Below are positions 38,403 to 55,804 of a DNA stretch of 64,000 bases, in pieces. Origin of the DNA: Denitrovibrio sp. (GTDB taxonomy: Bacteria; Chrysiogenota; Deferribacteres; Deferribacterales; Geovibrionaceae). The stretch covers positions 1 to 64,000 of the forward strand of contig PKTM01000012.1 in NCBI GenBank assembly GCA_002869145.1, given 5' to 3'. Within the stretch, counting starts at the first letter, position 1; every line of letters begins with the position of its first letter. A program made the position numbers and the translations under genes. The notes beneath the pieces were generated by a model. The model was not told the DNA's origin, made no database searches, and saw only the letters and a program-made list of their open reading frames with translations.

Positions 38403-38447
38403 CTCTTGTTAAGGTTTAAAATTTACAATAAAGATTTTATAACATAA

Positions 38448-38481
38448 GCGACTGGTAATAAAATTTACCAGTCGCTTTTTT
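38448..38481. terminator. Terminator after glyQ (left copy of twin terminators)
   Basis: An 11-pair stem GCGACTGGTAA/TTACCAGTCGC is followed by six T. It is almost the same as the hairpin at 39130-39163. It also terminates the convergent membrane protein gene, whose stop codon touches the T run. Confidence 0.92.
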
Positions 38482-38905
38482 ACACCATATTACAGACGTA
38501 AAAAGCAGCAATAAATGAAAGTCCAATAATTAATGCTATCAATCCAGTAGTGTTTAAACTCGCCAACTGCCTATTAACCTTACAAACCTTTTTTATCAAT
38601 TCATCTGATATATTGTTTTCATTATGTACTATGTCAATCATTTCAAGATGTAATATATGTGATCTTTTTAAAGAAAGCACAACTAAGATAAGTGAGATAA
38701 TAAAAAACAGTTCAGCAACGATGAAAAGAATTATATGGTAATATATTTCAGAAAAATCAACTGAACTCAAAGTCACACCTATAGCACCAGATGATATAAA
38801 TACTATTTTGTTATTAATATTATCTGAAACACTAGACGCACTCTCTGATAGTTGCCTGTTATAATAAACTAATTGAAGATAATCTTCTTCACTAATTTGA
38901 CTCAC
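38480..38905 (-). CDS. Membrane protein of the two-gene cassette, unknown function
   Basis: I do not recognise this 141-residue protein. It has a polar N-terminus of about 32 residues, then three hydrophobic segments (about residues 33-50, 57-79 and 117-139) with a charged loop containing HLEMIDIVHNENN between the second and third. It starts with GTG at 38905, after AGGCGATTTTT. It lies nine bases after the proline-rich small gene and is AT-richer than the neighbouring housekeeping genes. The pair sits between near-identical terminators, which suggests a compact inserted cassette. Confidence 0.65.
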   Translation of the reverse strand: MSQISEEDYLQLVYYNRQLSESASSVSDNINNKIVFISSGAIGVTLSSVDFSEIYYHIILFIVAELFFIISLILVVLSLKRSHILHLEMIDIVHNENNISDELIKKVCKVNRQLASLNTTGLIALIIGLSFIAAFYVCNMV

Positions 38906-38914
38906 AAAAATCGC

Positions 38915-39061
38915 CTATTTCCTTCGTGGGGGTGGTACAGGAACTCCTTTTTCAGTAATACGTTCCTTACCTCCATCAGGTCTTGGTGATGGGCTACTTG
39001 GAGAATCTTTAGTAGGTGTTGGCCTGCTGGGTGGAGTTGGGTTACTTTTTTTATCTGACAT
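38915..39061 (-). CDS. 48-residue proline-rich small protein of the cassette
   Basis: The frame starts at ATG 39061, six bases after GGGAGG, and ends with TAG at 38915. The product (MSDKKSNPTPPSRPTPTKDS...VPVPPPRRK) is about one quarter proline with Ser, Lys and Arg, probably unstructured, with no membrane span. It is followed by the membrane protein gene and preceded by a clear promoter. Function unknown; a small partner, antitoxin-like or SH3-type ligand role is only a guess. Confidence 0.65.
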   Translation of the reverse strand: MSDKKSNPTPPSRPTPTKDSPSSPSPRPDGGKERITEKGVPVPPPRRK

Positions 39062-39084
39062 AATACACCTCCCGAATTTTTGAT

Positions 39085-39113
39085 ATATTACCACAAAGAA
39101 AACAACTTCACAA
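39085..39113 (-). promoter_or_regulatory. Sigma-70-like promoter of the two-gene cassette
   Basis: On the minus strand TTGTGA and TAATAT are separated by 17 bases, ending 23 bases ahead of the small-protein ATG. It lies inside the twin terminators, so the cassette is a self-contained transcription unit. Confidence 0.65.
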
Positions 39114-39129
39114 TATTTTTACACACATA

Positions 39130-39163
39130 GCGACTGGTAACAAAAGTTACCAGTCGCATTTTT
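39130..39163. terminator. Terminator after the paralog operon (right copy of twin terminators)
   Basis: A 12-pair stem GCGACTGGTAAC/GTTACCAGTCGC has an AAAA loop and is followed by ATTTTT on the plus strand; on the minus strand the following bases are CTATGTGTG, so T-tract support there is weak. It lies 30 bases past the last paralog stop. Compare 38448-38481. Confidence 0.75.
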
Positions 39164-39193
39164 ATGCGTTATGATGAAATTCAGTGGGGGAAA

Positions 39194-39736
39194 TTACTCA
39201 ACCGACTCACGGTATAAACTCAGATACCCGTCACCATATAAATAGACAACCTTCCCTAAATCATCGGTAAAATCAGGAAATCCATCATCTCCAAGATTAT
39301 CGAGAAGCTGATATGTTTCATCTGCGATAGAAAGAAGCGTAACAAGTCCGTCTCTGGTTTCTTCATCCTTGTTAATAAGACGGCTTATCTTTCTCAGGTC
39401 TTTCCGTGAGCCCCTTGTAATGATTTTCCCTGTCCGTGTGTCCAGATCAATCTCAAACTCAGGGTCGTTCGTAAGTCCGTTAAGGTTAAGAAGAAACTCC
39501 ATCCTATCTCTTATATAGGAAACAAATTCCATAATATTTTCGAGACTCGGAAGAAATGACTCTTCATTTTCAGCAACGGTATCATCATTAATACATGAAT
39601 TTTCAAGTCTGTCAGCTTCGTCGAAAGCTTTTAGCGTATCTAAAAATATAGCAGCGGCATCAATATCTTGCACAACTCCGCAATTAGAGGATTCATTGCG
39701 GCCGCTGCCGTTCACATTTGATCTGTCACGATCCAT
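39194..39736 (-). CDS. Tandem paralog 3, unknown family
   Basis: I do not recognise this 180-residue acidic protein. Its middle and end align by eye with the two upstream genes: a NGLTNDPEFE segment that corresponds to GIPKDPPVE in the others, a strand pair around GKIITRGSRKDLRKISRLIN, then a helix with LLSIADETYQLL. It is the most divergent of the three and has a degenerate N-terminus. There is no signal peptide or membrane span. Its own leader hairpin precedes it, so its translation may be controlled separately from the other two. Confidence 0.7.
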   Translation of the reverse strand: MDRDRSNVNGSGRNESSNCGVVQDIDAAAIFLDTLKAFDEADRLENSCINDDTVAENEESFLPSLENIMEFVSYIRDRMEFLLNLNGLTNDPEFEIDLDTRTGKIITRGSRKDLRKISRLINKDEETRDGLVTLLSIADETYQLLDNLGDDGFPDFTDDLGKVVYLYGDGYLSLYRESVE

Positions 39737-39774
39737 AGCTCACCTCTTACCTCACTGAAAAGCAAGAGGTGTGC
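39737..39774 (-). promoter_or_regulatory. SD-sequestering leader hairpin before paralog 3
   Basis: On the minus strand CACCTCTT pairs with AAGAGGTG (39764-39771 with 39741-39748), extended by two more pairs past a mismatch. The 3' arm contains the ribosome site AGAGGTGAG just ahead of the ATG, so folding would hide it. Confidence 0.55.
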
Positions 39775-39787
39775 CATGTTTAAGTTA

Positions 39788-40396
39788 CTATAATGAATAG
39801 TTTTTTCCGTCCGATAAGATATCCAGTCCATCACCGTACTTTATACTGGCGTGGTGGTAATGTCTCTCTTCGTCAAAAAGGTAGGCAAATTTCTCAACAA
39901 CCTCCTGAGGTTCCTCACTGTCGCGGTATTCTTTCTGAAACCTTAGACTTTCAGCCATATTGATAACATGACTGGCTATTGCAAGTGTTGTCCTTGCAAG
40001 GTCTGAAATGTCCTCATCTTCATTGATAAGATTTGCGATCTTATCAATATCATCTCTGTCGCCCTTGATAATTATTTCAGTTCTTGTGTAGGAATACTGC
40101 ATTTCGACAGGTGGATCTTTTGGGATATCGTTTCTGACAAAAAGCAGATCAAGCATATAATCAAGACGCTCAGAAAGCTCTTTCAGACTGGCCTGATTAG
40201 GCAGCATAAGCGGTTCATTACTCAGCTTTGTTCCGGTTATCTGAACCTGTTTAACGCTTATCTGTGTGTTTTCCTGTCTCATAAGCTCAGCAAGCTGAGT
40301 ATGAAAACTCTCTGTCAATGCTCCACTTTTTGAACAGCACTCTTTCTTCTGCACCGAAGGCATCATATTGTCCTGTACAATTTTTGCAAAATTCAT
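39788..40396 (-). CDS. Tandem paralog 2, unknown family
   Basis: A 202-residue cytoplasmic-looking protein with no span or signal. Marks shared with paralog 1: LPNQASLKELSERLDYMLD near residue 60, RNDIPKDPPVEMQYSY, GDRDDIDKIANLINEDED, IASHVINMAESLRFQKEYR, and a C-terminal FAYLFDEE. The fold looks like a mixed beta-hairpin plus helices. The start overlaps the stop of paralog 1 as ATGA. I know no family with this motif set. Confidence 0.75.
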   Translation of the reverse strand: MNFAKIVQDNMMPSVQKKECCSKSGALTESFHTQLAELMRQENTQISVKQVQITGTKLSNEPLMLPNQASLKELSERLDYMLDLLFVRNDIPKDPPVEMQYSYTRTEIIIKGDRDDIDKIANLINEDEDISDLARTTLAIASHVINMAESLRFQKEYRDSEEPQEVVEKFAYLFDEERHYHHASIKYGDGLDILSDGKNYSL

Positions 40397-41028
40397 CCTA
40401 AACCTCCGCTTTGATTAAAATCATAAGAAAACAGTTTTCCGCCAGACAGCAGTGCAGACTCAGAGCCATACATGTAGCTGACTTCAGGGAGTTTTCTGTC
40501 ATCATTAAAAAGGTATGAATATTTTCTGATAATCTCATCAGCGCCATTGCTTCTGCGGTACTCTTCCTGAAACTCTAGAGATTCCTGCATTGCAGTTGCG
40601 TGGCTTGAGATCGCAAGAAATGTGCGAACATACTCTTTCAGGTCAGAGTCGGCATTGATAAGATTCTCTATTTCATCAGCATCTTCTCTGTTGCCGTAGA
40701 CTGTCACATTGTTTTGTGAAAAAGAATATTTCAGTTCGACTGGGGGGTCTTTTGGGATTCCGTTCTTGTCAAACAGACTGTCAAGCTGTTCGTCCAGACC
40801 TATGGCAAGCAGGGAAACATTTTCCATGGTAGGCAAAATAAGCCTGCTTTCAAAAAGCTTAGTTTCCGCCATGTTGAGGTCTGATTCCTCTATGGATATC
40901 TCTCCGGAATCTGATAATTCTTTTAAGATATTATAGAAATCATGTGCATTACCAACATCTTTTGGTCTTGCTTCTATCGTTTGCGCCGAAGGTGTTATAC
41001 TGTCAGCCACTAAAGATGGAATATTCAT
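40393..41028 (-). CDS. Tandem paralog 1, unknown family
   Basis: A 211-residue protein, the first of the three-gene unit. Shared marks: LPTMENVSLLAIGLDEQLD, KNGIPKDPPVELKYSF, GNREDADEIENLINADSD, ISSHATAMQESLEFQEEYR and YSYLFNDDRKLPEV. The N-terminal 50 residues (MNIPSLVADSITPSAQT...) resemble the N-terminus of paralog 2 (MNFAKIVQDNMMPSVQ). GGAGGTGAGCC before the ATG is a strong ribosome site held in a hairpin. Function unknown. Confidence 0.75.
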   Translation of the reverse strand: MNIPSLVADSITPSAQTIEARPKDVGNAHDFYNILKELSDSGEISIEESDLNMAETKLFESRLILPTMENVSLLAIGLDEQLDSLFDKNGIPKDPPVELKYSFSQNNVTVYGNREDADEIENLINADSDLKEYVRTFLAISSHATAMQESLEFQEEYRRSNGADEIIRKYSYLFNDDRKLPEVSYMYGSESALLSGGKLFSYDFNQSGGLG

Positions 41029-41067
41029 GGCTCACCTCCATTGCTTTCAATTAGCAAGAAGTGAGCC
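41029..41067 (-). promoter_or_regulatory. SD-sequestering leader hairpin before paralog 1
   Basis: GGCTCAC/GTGAGCC (seven pairs) encloses a second helper stem TTGCT/AGCAA. The ribosome site GGAGGTGA lies partly within the outer stem next to the ATG. The layout and the sequence CTTGCTAATTGAAAGC resemble the hairpin ahead of paralog 3. Confidence 0.6.
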
Positions 41068-41089
41068 CAAATTATAATTTATTTATAAA

Positions 41090-41656
41090 TTAATCCTCGT
41101 CATCAACATAGCTGAAAAGCATCCCTTCACGAAGTTTTTCCGCTGTGTCCTCTTCAACAAGCAGCTCAACAAGGGTAAAAGCGAATTCAGCCGCTGTTGC
41201 AGGTCCACGGCTGGTGATTATATTCTCATCCACAACCACTATAGCTTCCTGATATTCGGCATCTTTTTCCACAATGTCTTTAAATCCGGGATAACTAGTG
41301 GCCATGCACCCTTTCAAAAGACCTTTTTCTGCTAAAACAAAAGGCGCTGCGCATATTGCTGCTATGTATTTATCCTCTTCTGCAAACTTCCTAAGAAGCC
41401 TGTCACAAACAGCATCGTTCAGAATATTTCTGGCACCTTGGGTTCCTCCGGGCAAAACTATCATTTCAAAATCATCGCCGTCCAAGCTTTCCAGAGCGCA
41501 GTCAGGTTTAATCATTAACCCCTGAGCGCCCTTTATAAGACTGTCTCTCAGCCCGGCAACAACAACTTCCACTTCCGCTCTGCGTAGAATATCTATCACG
41601 CTCACAGCTTCGATCTCTTCAAATCCGTCAGCAAGAACTACTATTACTTTAGCCAT
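41090..41656 (-). CDS. DJ-1/PfpI family protein (YajL-like)
   Basis: The 188-residue protein has the DJ-1 layout: ADGFEEIEAV with the conserved Glu, IVLPGGTQGA, the nucleophile elbow Cys in AAICAAPFVLAEKGLL, and SRGPATAAEFAFTLVELL. The family includes YajL/DJ-1 chaperones and deglycases that protect against electrophile or oxidative damage. It is divergent from trpB2, with 112 bases between. Exact substrate is unknown. Confidence 0.9.
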   Translation of the reverse strand: MAKVIVVLADGFEEIEAVSVIDILRRAEVEVVVAGLRDSLIKGAQGLMIKPDCALESLDGDDFEMIVLPGGTQGARNILNDAVCDRLLRKFAEEDKYIAAICAAPFVLAEKGLLKGCMATSYPGFKDIVEKDAEYQEAIVVVDENIITSRGPATAAEFAFTLVELLVEEDTAEKLREGMLFSYVDDED

Positions 41657-53940: not shown

Positions 53941-54468
53941 ATGAAATTTAAAGAGCTGGAACCTGCCAATTTTAAAGGAAACCCTTTCAAGATGATCAAC
54001 GATGACTGGATGCTCATCACCGCCGGGGAAAAAGATAATTTCAACACCATGACAGCAAGCTGGGGCGGAATGGGTATTATGTGGTTCAAGAACGTCTCTT
54101 TTGTTGTGGTTCGACCGAACAGATACACTTTCGAGTTTATGGAAAAACACGACCGGTATACACTCTCATTTTTTGAAGAGGAATACAGAGATGCCCTCAC
54201 TATCTGCGGAACAAAATCAGGAAGAGACACTGACAAGGTTAAAGAGGCAGGTCTAACTCCTGTTTTCGATAACGGCGGAGTTTATTTTCAGGAATCTAAG
54301 ATTGTTATGGTATGCAAAAAGCTATACTGGCAGGACATTACGCCTGATAATTTTCTAGCAGATTTTATACACGAGAAGTATCCGAACAAAGACTATCATA
54401 GAATGTATATAGGTGAGATAGAAAGCATGTTCGAGAAATGGGTTATAAACCCATTAGACCTGCAATAG
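53941..54468 (+). CDS. Flavin reductase-like protein (flavoredoxin family)
   Basis: The 175-residue protein shows the flavin reductase domain: NDDWMLITAGEKDNFNTMTASWGGMG and VVVRPNRYTFEF. Family members reduce or bind FMN. The start at ATG 53941 follows TCAGGGA. It ends 26 bases inside the convergent caspase-like gene. A GGGTTATAAACCC hairpin lies at its end. Confidence 0.85.
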   Translation: MKFKELEPANFKGNPFKMINDDWMLITAGEKDNFNTMTASWGGMGIMWFKNVSFVVVRPNRYTFEFMEKHDRYTLSFFEEEYRDALTICGTKSGRDTDKVKEAGLTPVFDNGGVYFQESKIVMVCKKLYWQDITPDNFLADFIHEKYPNKDYHRMYIGEIESMFEKWVINPLDLQ

Positions 54469-55804
54469 CAGGCTGAGTTTCGATACAGTCAGGGCAGACC
54501 CATTCCACTGCATCTCCGGCTGTCTGTTTTATGCGCTTTCTGACCTTTATAATATCTGAAACGAGCTGCAGGTTGGACTCTTTCAGTCTGCGGCTCAAAA
54601 CTGAACTAATCATATCTTTTCTTTCGTTCAGCTTTGTAAAAGTATCCATGTTTTTTGCTTTTATCCTGAAAGCTGCCTTGTATTGTCTGTCCATCGCAGG
54701 AACAACAAAAGGCGCCAGTATTATATAAGGATATTCGTCACTGTCATAGTTCACCCTCTTCATAGATTTAGCTTTCATTACAAAGTCTTTCCGCTCAGGG
54801 GCTAATACAGGCGGCATATTTTTTAGAGAATCATCAATCTCCCGCAGTCTTTCAAGTGCCTTTGAAGCATCAGGAGAGTGAGGATTCTTTTTAATGATAG
54901 CCAGCAGTTCTTCCTTTTCACCAGACATCTCTTTCCTAGGGGGTTCAGAAGCCTCAATAGAAGGCACATCGTTAAAAAACAGAAACTCACCTTCGAAACC
55001 GAGCATTTTCCCATGCACAGGTGTTTGTGTGCCTGAGGTGTACTGGGAAACCGACCTGCGAAGGTATTCTCCAAGCTCAGAACCAGTTATAACACTGTCC
55101 ATATTCTGATCTGCATCACCGGAAAGTGCTGTTACAAACCTTCTGCGAAAAATTGAGACATCAGGCACCATCTGATCCTCTGAACCGGAGGTGATAAACT
55201 GACGGACAGGTTTCTTCAGAAGCTCAGTAATCAGCTCAGGTATCGAACGCATGGCAGAGAAAACCGTTCCGGAAAAACAGCTGTCAAACATGAAAAGTAC
55301 TTGTTTGGAACGTATGTCTGATGCGTGTGAAGAGAAGAATGCTATAGGGATGCTGCCGCTTAGAAAACCATCTCTGTTTTCAGAAGGTCTTGCGGCATCT
55401 TTCAAAACTATATAGCCATTTTTTTCAGAGTTTTCAGTTAGGGTGTGTCCGTGTCCGGCATAATATATTAAGAGTCTTGCTGTCGGGTCATCTGCATAGT
55501 CTGAAATAAACCTGTCATATCTGGCAAAAAACTCAGCCTTGGTTAAGTTGTCCGCTCTTTCAACAAGAAAACCTCTGGATGAAAGCATTTCAGAGACAGT
55601 ATCTAAGTCTGTCTTAACTCCCGGAAGGTCTGGCCACCCACCTTCGTAATTATAAACTCCGGCAACAAGCGCTGCACTTACACTGAAAAGACTGTCTTTA
55701 TTAAGCTCAGATATATTGTCGGCATGTTTAATGGCTCTTGAATCTGCTAAAGCAGAGAGAGCAAACAGAATTACAAGTATTACATTTACAGCTTTTATCG
55801 TCAT
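54443..55804 (-). CDS. Secreted caspase-like peptidase (C14 family)
   Basis: The 453-residue protein has a signal peptide (MTIKAVNVILVILFALSALA) and a caspase-fold domain. Catalytic His is in LLIYYAGHGH, catalytic Cys in FMFDSCFSGT. A C-terminal region of about 200 residues contains a Pro/Glu linker and a helical part with RNC-like charged residues. The start overlaps the fliQ stop as ATGA, so it is coupled to the flagellar operon. In most genomes fliR or flhB stands here. Possible work in envelope or flagellar processing is inference. Confidence 0.85.
   Translation of the reverse strand: MTIKAVNVILVILFALSALADSRAIKHADNISELNKDSLFSVSAALVAGVYNYEGGWPDLPGVKTDLDTVSEMLSSRGFLVERADNLTKAEFFARYDRFISDYADDPTARLLIYYAGHGHTLTENSEKNGYIVLKDAARPSENRDGFLSGSIPIAFFSSHASDIRSKQVLFMFDSCFSGTVFSAMRSIPELITELLKKPVRQFITSGSEDQMVPDVSIFRRRFVTALSGDADQNMDSVITGSELGEYLRRSVSQYTSGTQTPVHGKMLGFEGEFLFFNDVPSIEASEPPRKEMSGEKEELLAIIKKNPHSPDASKALERLREIDDSLKNMPPVLAPERKDFVMKAKSMKRVNYDSDEYPYIILAPFVVPAMDRQYKAAFRIKAKNMDTFTKLNERKDMISSVLSRRLKESNLQLVSDIIKVRKRIKQTAGDAVEWVCPDCIETQPAIAGLMGL

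Follow-up and report, generated by a model that had tools for sequence, protein, structure and literature searches.

Three adjacent paralogous genes of a Denitrovibrio genome, here termed A, B and C, encode a real new protein family that has a plausible home, short of being a new system. Our best explanation, to which we give a probability of roughly 0.45, is that A, B and C are accessory proteins under RpoN control that are exported through the flagellar type III gate but are not structural parts. What we have computed is the homology within the family, the sigma-54-like promoters, the conservation of an N-terminal FxxxPhi motif, the disorder of the N-terminus and the finding that nearly all carriers have flagellar genes.

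Three paralogs of an unrecognized family

The three genes lie on the (-) strand of the window, i.e. the whole stretch of 64,000 nucleotides that was analyzed. Gene A (40393..41028, 211 aa) is the first paralog, supported by its ORF, by BLASTP and by AlphaFold2. The second, gene B (39788..40396, (-), 202 aa), is translationally coupled to A; the start codon of B and the stop codon of A share the sequence ATGA, B has no leader, and no promoter of its own was seen. Gene C (39194..39736, (-), 180 aa) is a divergent third paralog that has its own promoter and its own leader. BLASTP aligns A with B over 200 aa without gaps at 40% identity (E = 6e-49), A with C over 87 aa at 25% (E = 2e-10), and B with C over 100 aa at 31% (E = 2e-11). 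The ORFs and these similarities bear out the initial annotation, which had described three adjacent minus-strand paralogs. They are the only copies of the family in the whole source genome. Orthologs of gene C are present in both of the other Denitrovibrio genomes, with 58–60% identity.

The annotation had based the relationship on shared sequence motifs. The G-x-R-x-D-x-x-x-I-x-x-L-I-N motif is present in all three proteins (GNREDADEIENLIN, GDRDDIDKIANLIN and GSRKDLRKISRLIN). DPPVE, proposed as common to the core, is found in A and B, but C reads DPEFE. The MxESL of a proposed helix likewise occurs in A and B, though B alone has the A-x5-M spacing given in the annotation.

The annotation could link these proteins to no known family, and our searches led to the same result, with no credible match among family, solved-sequence or fold libraries. 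Searches of Pfam, NCBIfam, PHROGs and PADLOC gave nothing above cut-off. KH_DEAH11, Secretin_N, Rgg_C and BrxC were rejected since they fall below cut-off and the paralogs disagree. Profile matching to PDB sequences returned CCDC22 (E = 0.012), HP1076 (E = 0.12) and NpmA (E = 0.5), with no region in common, and we attribute these to chance. Comparison with known or candidate defence proteins gave a best E of 0.011 at 11 bits, insufficient for an assignment. A phage or mobile origin was rejected, as there was no match in phages or viral contigs. A role as FliK in hook-length control was also rejected; A, B and C give no match to the C-terminal Flg_hook domain (PF02120), while the FliK of the same genome matches it.

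The structures of A and B were predicted by AlphaFold2 using the window and relative sequences as input, with pLDDT = 72.8 and 73.5 respectively. The core is predicted at about 90 in each (residues 65–175 in B), and comprises a helix, two strands, a helix and a long helix. A Foldseek search with these models found no credible fold match, with best E values of 1.6–1.8 (pdb) and 0.18 (viral). The N-terminus of A and B is predicted to be disordered, with low confidence at residues 1–29 and 43–60 (below 50 in B) and one helix at 25–40.

Within the taxonomic family, 11 of 12 genomes, counting the source genome, have one to three recognizable copies each. Arrays are restricted to Denitrovibrio, with sizes of 3, 3 and 4 in three genomes when a diverged extra paralog of the two other species is counted, and the other genera of the taxonomic family have one orphan copy. 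Profile searching revealed remote single copies in two genomes from the other class of the phylum (G048 and G049) in G129, the sole sampled genome of its phylum, and in 9 of 68 genomes of a second phylum. A homolog is also encoded on a Methylobacterium plasmid. The family is rare, with four matches in a broad sample of 386 genomes and none beyond those already found. A broad pattern search of genome contigs using A alone gave no match, and the same search using A2 gave four loci, in the genera Denitrovibrio and Seleniivibrio.

The annotation had suggested looking for co-occurring genes, and no conserved functional partner emerged. Homologs follow a DJ-1 gene, lie near htpG or stand alone, and at the loci examined none is beside flagellar genes. 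The DJ-1/PfpI-family gene upstream of A (41090..41656, (-)) is a possible source of read-through into A, and a DJ-1 gene is the upstream neighbor shared by Denitrovibrio and Seleniivibrio.

The extra paralog of Denitrovibrio (L018, 6910–7500; L019, 9587–10204) has an acidic C-terminus and a FlgM-like sequence DEVNISSSA. In L019 its start (MNNAxxVNDSISPSTQ) is nearly identical to that of the adjacent A-type gene. We considered whether it was an unrelated gene with a borrowed N-terminus, but BLASTP similarity extending over ~106 residues identifies it as a diverged paralog, and it therefore provides no proof of a modular N-terminal signal. By eye, the homolog of G437 (L068, 9678–10295), a genome of another phylum, is more like the proteins of Denitrovibrio than like the others from its own phylum, which suggests that it was transferred horizontally. 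The Methylobacterium homolog (L049, 4743–5474) is flanked by a DUF736 gene and the gene of an IS630 transposase. Within the window, positions 38447–39164 hold a two-gene islet encoding a 141-aa membrane protein and a 59-aa proline-rich protein, flanked by two 36-bp terminator-like inverted repeats that are 92% identical. The islet is absent from the other two Denitrovibrio genomes, where gene C adjoins glyQ. At 54443–55804 of the window a caspase-like protein (of peptidase C14 type by eye, with YAGHG and DSCFSG) adjoins fliPQ.

Predicted sigma-54 promoters and the N-terminal motif

Gene C is preceded by a sigma-54 −24/−12 box of full consensus (39761..39777, (-); ATGGCACACCTCTTGCT, TGGCAC-N5-TTGCT), with +1 predicted near 39750. 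The box of A (41053..41069, (-); TGGGCTCACTTCTTGCT, GG-N10-GC) is sigma-54-like with a weak −24 element, and its +1 is predicted near 41042. It scores at about the 99th percentile of background, and homologs have a box in the same place. The start sites of both genes are all predicted. The distance from the −12 GC to the ATG is 24–27 nt in A, C and the homologs of Denitrovibrio and Seleniivibrio. A box is also found in 12 of 15 remote homologs, each with p < 0.016, i.e. better than 98.4% of random 120-mers taken from the same locus. The Fisher combined value of 2.5e-14 overstates the strength because related sequences share ancestry. These boxes differ in sequence and come from different phyla.

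The strict sigma-54 pattern occurs at 29 sites in the source genome, compared to 2 for the reversed control, and the C box is one of the 29. The genes downstream of strict sites include those for AmtB, GlnB, a NifV-like protein, chemoreceptors and FlgM (132 nt downstream), together with gene C. Similar boxes lie upstream of flgB, the flgF operon, flgH and the fliK-flgD-flgE operon, and the identities of FlgB, FlgF, FlgH, FliK, FlgD and FlgM were confirmed using Pfam. Beside flgB are genes for an NtrC-type response regulator (Sigma54_activat) and a histidine kinase. In silico, A and C thus share with flgB, flgF, flgH and fliK the presence of a box, and their box-to-ATG spacing is that of the rod/hook genes. 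We therefore consider it likely that the family is co-regulated with flagellar genes. The promoter alone is no proof of flagellar timing because sigma-54 also drives the AmtB, GlnB and NifV-like genes.

The annotation had reported that the proteins carry no signal. This is right as far as Sec is concerned, but the N-terminus has the layout of an export signal of the flagellar rod/hook type. Export substrates of this type are recognized by the gate through an FXXXPhi sequence in their N-terminal region (PMC10965912). In Salmonella FlgD it occupies residues 36–40 with small non-polar residues upstream; the rule is that such residues stand early in the protein, about 27 residues or more ahead of the motif (PMC8983047). 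Protein A has F31-Y-N-I-L35 (40924..40938, (-)), which resembles the gate recognition motif, and the alignment places F31-H-T-Q-L35 of B (40292..40306, (-)) and F31-L-D-T-L35 of C (39632..39646, (-)) at the same residues. In the source genome FlgB, FlgC, FlgD, FlgF, FlgG and FliK have FxxxPhi within residues 29–49. Small non-polar residues occur early in A (I3) and B (A4), 27–28 residues before F31; C has none that early.

Given that 28% of ordinary ORFs have FxxxPhi at residues 25–36, the argument rests on conservation of the motif and not on its presence. In alignment A1 (n = 17) F31 is found in 15 sequences, and the residue is hydrophobic at position 35 in 16 and at position 38 in all 17. 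Apart from M1 and F31, none of the first 62 positions has one residue in more than 10 of the 17. The motif is missing at that place in G048, G129 and the Methylobacterium homolog. The conservation of positions 31 and 35 could instead reflect a helix contact. FlhA is present in G129 and in all the carriers tested on the Deferribacterota side, and in eight of the nine carriers of the second phylum, the ninth genome being 72% complete. Most of the relatives that lack the family also have flagella; the co-occurrence is therefore consistent with our explanation but is no proof of it and does not discriminate.

These data also bear on whether the genes might be RpoN-controlled yet non-flagellar, with a role in, for example, nitrogen or envelope stress physiology and FxxxPhi as part of an amphipathic helix. 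The RpoN regulon of the source genome is broad, the family genes are never beside flagellar genes, and the Methylobacterium plasmid homolog has neither the motif nor the promoter box. Yet FxxxPhi is the best conserved feature of the N-terminus, the carriers are flagellated, and the box-to-ATG spacing is the same as that of the rod/hook genes. We regard a non-flagellar role as unlikely, if not remotely so.

Somewhat less probable still, in our estimation, is that the proteins stay in the cytoplasm as RpoN-controlled flagellar helpers, either export chaperones or regulators that bind the FlhB pocket and set the timing of export. The sigma-54 and FxxxPhi evidence would fit such helpers equally, as would a globular core and the absence of a Sec signal, and RpoN-controlled flagellar helpers exist elsewhere. 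HP1076 of H. pylori is one, a co-chaperone of FliS. Our proteins match no chaperone by sequence or fold, and the HP1076 profile match noted above contains no stretch that passes and has no counterpart in Foldseek, so this identity was rejected. Moreover, a disordered, fast-evolving N-terminus with a motif at residue 31 is more like a substrate than a chaperone.

The reading of A, B and C as export substrates suggests the following course of events. RpoN RNA polymerase would transcribe the genes at the stage of the flagellar rod and hook genes, activated, we infer, by a flagellar regulator. The disordered N-terminus, with a hydrophobic start and FxxxPhi at residue 31, would then dock on FlhB, as rod/hook substrates, which are exported through FlhAB, do by this motif on the C-domain of FlhB. 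Judged from the sequences, passage of the family through the flagellar gate has slightly less than an even chance of being correct. The globular core would be the cargo, and might act outside the cell or at the growing rod and hook.

Predicted promoters within leader hairpins

The leader hairpin noted in the annotation is real and strong, at −22.4 kcal/mol (z = −5.4) ahead of A and −27.9 kcal/mol (z = −7.1) ahead of C. None of the other sigma-54-linked starts, about 22 in the genome, has z below −2.3. The inverted repeat of A (41029..41067, (-)) has its 5′ arm in the −24..−12 region and its 3′ arm, which holds the Shine-Dalgarno sequence, over GGAGGTGAGCC, and that of C (39734..39778, (-)) spans the promoter, the Shine-Dalgarno sequence and the start codon. 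A sigma-54 transcript would lack the 5′ arm, which coincides with the promoter region from −24 to −12. The predicted probability that the Shine-Dalgarno sequence is unpaired is ~0 in the read-through RNA and mostly ~1 in the short RNA. We found no terminator separating the DJ-1 gene from A, or B from C. Read-through RNA, whether it comes from the DJ-1 gene or from A-B, would thus be expected to fold with its Shine-Dalgarno sequence hidden and not be translated, while RNA started at the sigma-54 promoter, without the 5′ arm, would be translatable. From this modeling we tentatively suggest that the hairpins of A and C may insulate them against read-through translation.

In the two other Denitrovibrio species three leaders share a hairpin, one of them only weakly. 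The Seleniivibrio group has none, except for a weaker stem in one species. The ortholog of C in Denitrovibrio G001 retains the 18-pair stem, in which several of the pairs are G-U. This last observation is informative on whether the repeats could be DNA operators at the start site, to which a repressor or an activator binds, rather than RNA hairpins. As operators might, the repeats overlap the promoter and have their centers close to the predicted +1. But G-U pairs keep the pairing of an RNA and spoil the symmetry of a DNA site, and the 3′ arm coincides exactly with the Shine-Dalgarno sequence and ATG. We consider the operator explanation doubtful.

The annotation had taken the array and the hairpin as signs of a dose-sensitive function. 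Despite the clustered paralogs and a Shine-Dalgarno sequence inside the stem, a dose-sensitive, translationally autoregulated array is very improbable, given that the family has expanded into an array in a single genus (3 to 4 copies, and 1 elsewhere), that the stem contains a sigma-54 promoter whose transcripts would lack the 5′ arm, and that the leader matches no known RNA or riboswitch in Rfam. Control of timing with the rod and hook, plus insulation from read-through, is a simpler reading.

Relation to known systems

The closest relatives in kind are the rod/hook substrates FlgB, FlgC, FlgD, FlgE and FliK. Like A, B and C these have FxxxPhi after a disordered N-terminus, an RpoN promoter in the same genome and no Sec signal. 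They differ in that A, B and C have no homology to rod, hook, cap or FliK domains, lie outside the flagellar clusters and occur in a minority of flagellated bacteria. There is some likeness to FlgM in the extra paralog, with DEVNISSSA where the FlgM of the source genome has DSVSLSSSA. However, the members of the family have a different core, and the anti-sigma factor assignment was rejected because none matches PF04316, which the genome's own FlgM matches at 5.5e-18. The Feds (flagellar co-expressed determinants) of Campylobacter jejuni are non-structural and sigma-28-dependent (PMC9856085). Compared by description, these and similar secreted proteins of C. jejuni resemble A, B and C in flagellar co-expression and in not being structural, but the boxes of the family are of the sigma-54 type.

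For the leaders, the nearest parallel is gene e of phage T4, the long transcripts of which are translated ~100-fold less well (PMC3014915); T4 soc and I-TevI have the same type of leader (PMC2988022). As predicted for A and C, the stem hides the Shine-Dalgarno sequence in long transcripts, and short transcripts are free of the 5′ arm, which contains their promoter. Sequestration in the long RNA and release in the short was found for A and C in silico only. The A and C leaders, which are predicted, belong to cellular genes and have a sigma-54 promoter, in contrast to the phage late promoter of T4. To our knowledge promoter-in-hairpin leaders have so far been known from phage T4 and its relatives. 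That Denitrovibrio has such a device, together with a non-structural family exported early, in the rod/hook class, under RpoN control and across several phyla, is possible as a whole, though on balance unlikely.

The family itself offers an unclassified fold and a conserved signature. If our explanation is correct, a conserved protein that is not a structural part would be exported at the rod/hook stage by the flagella of free-living bacteria in at least two phyla, raising the testable question of how flagellar export is used outside pathogens. The promoter-in-hairpin would be a compact block on leaky translation beside a neighbor that is constitutively read.
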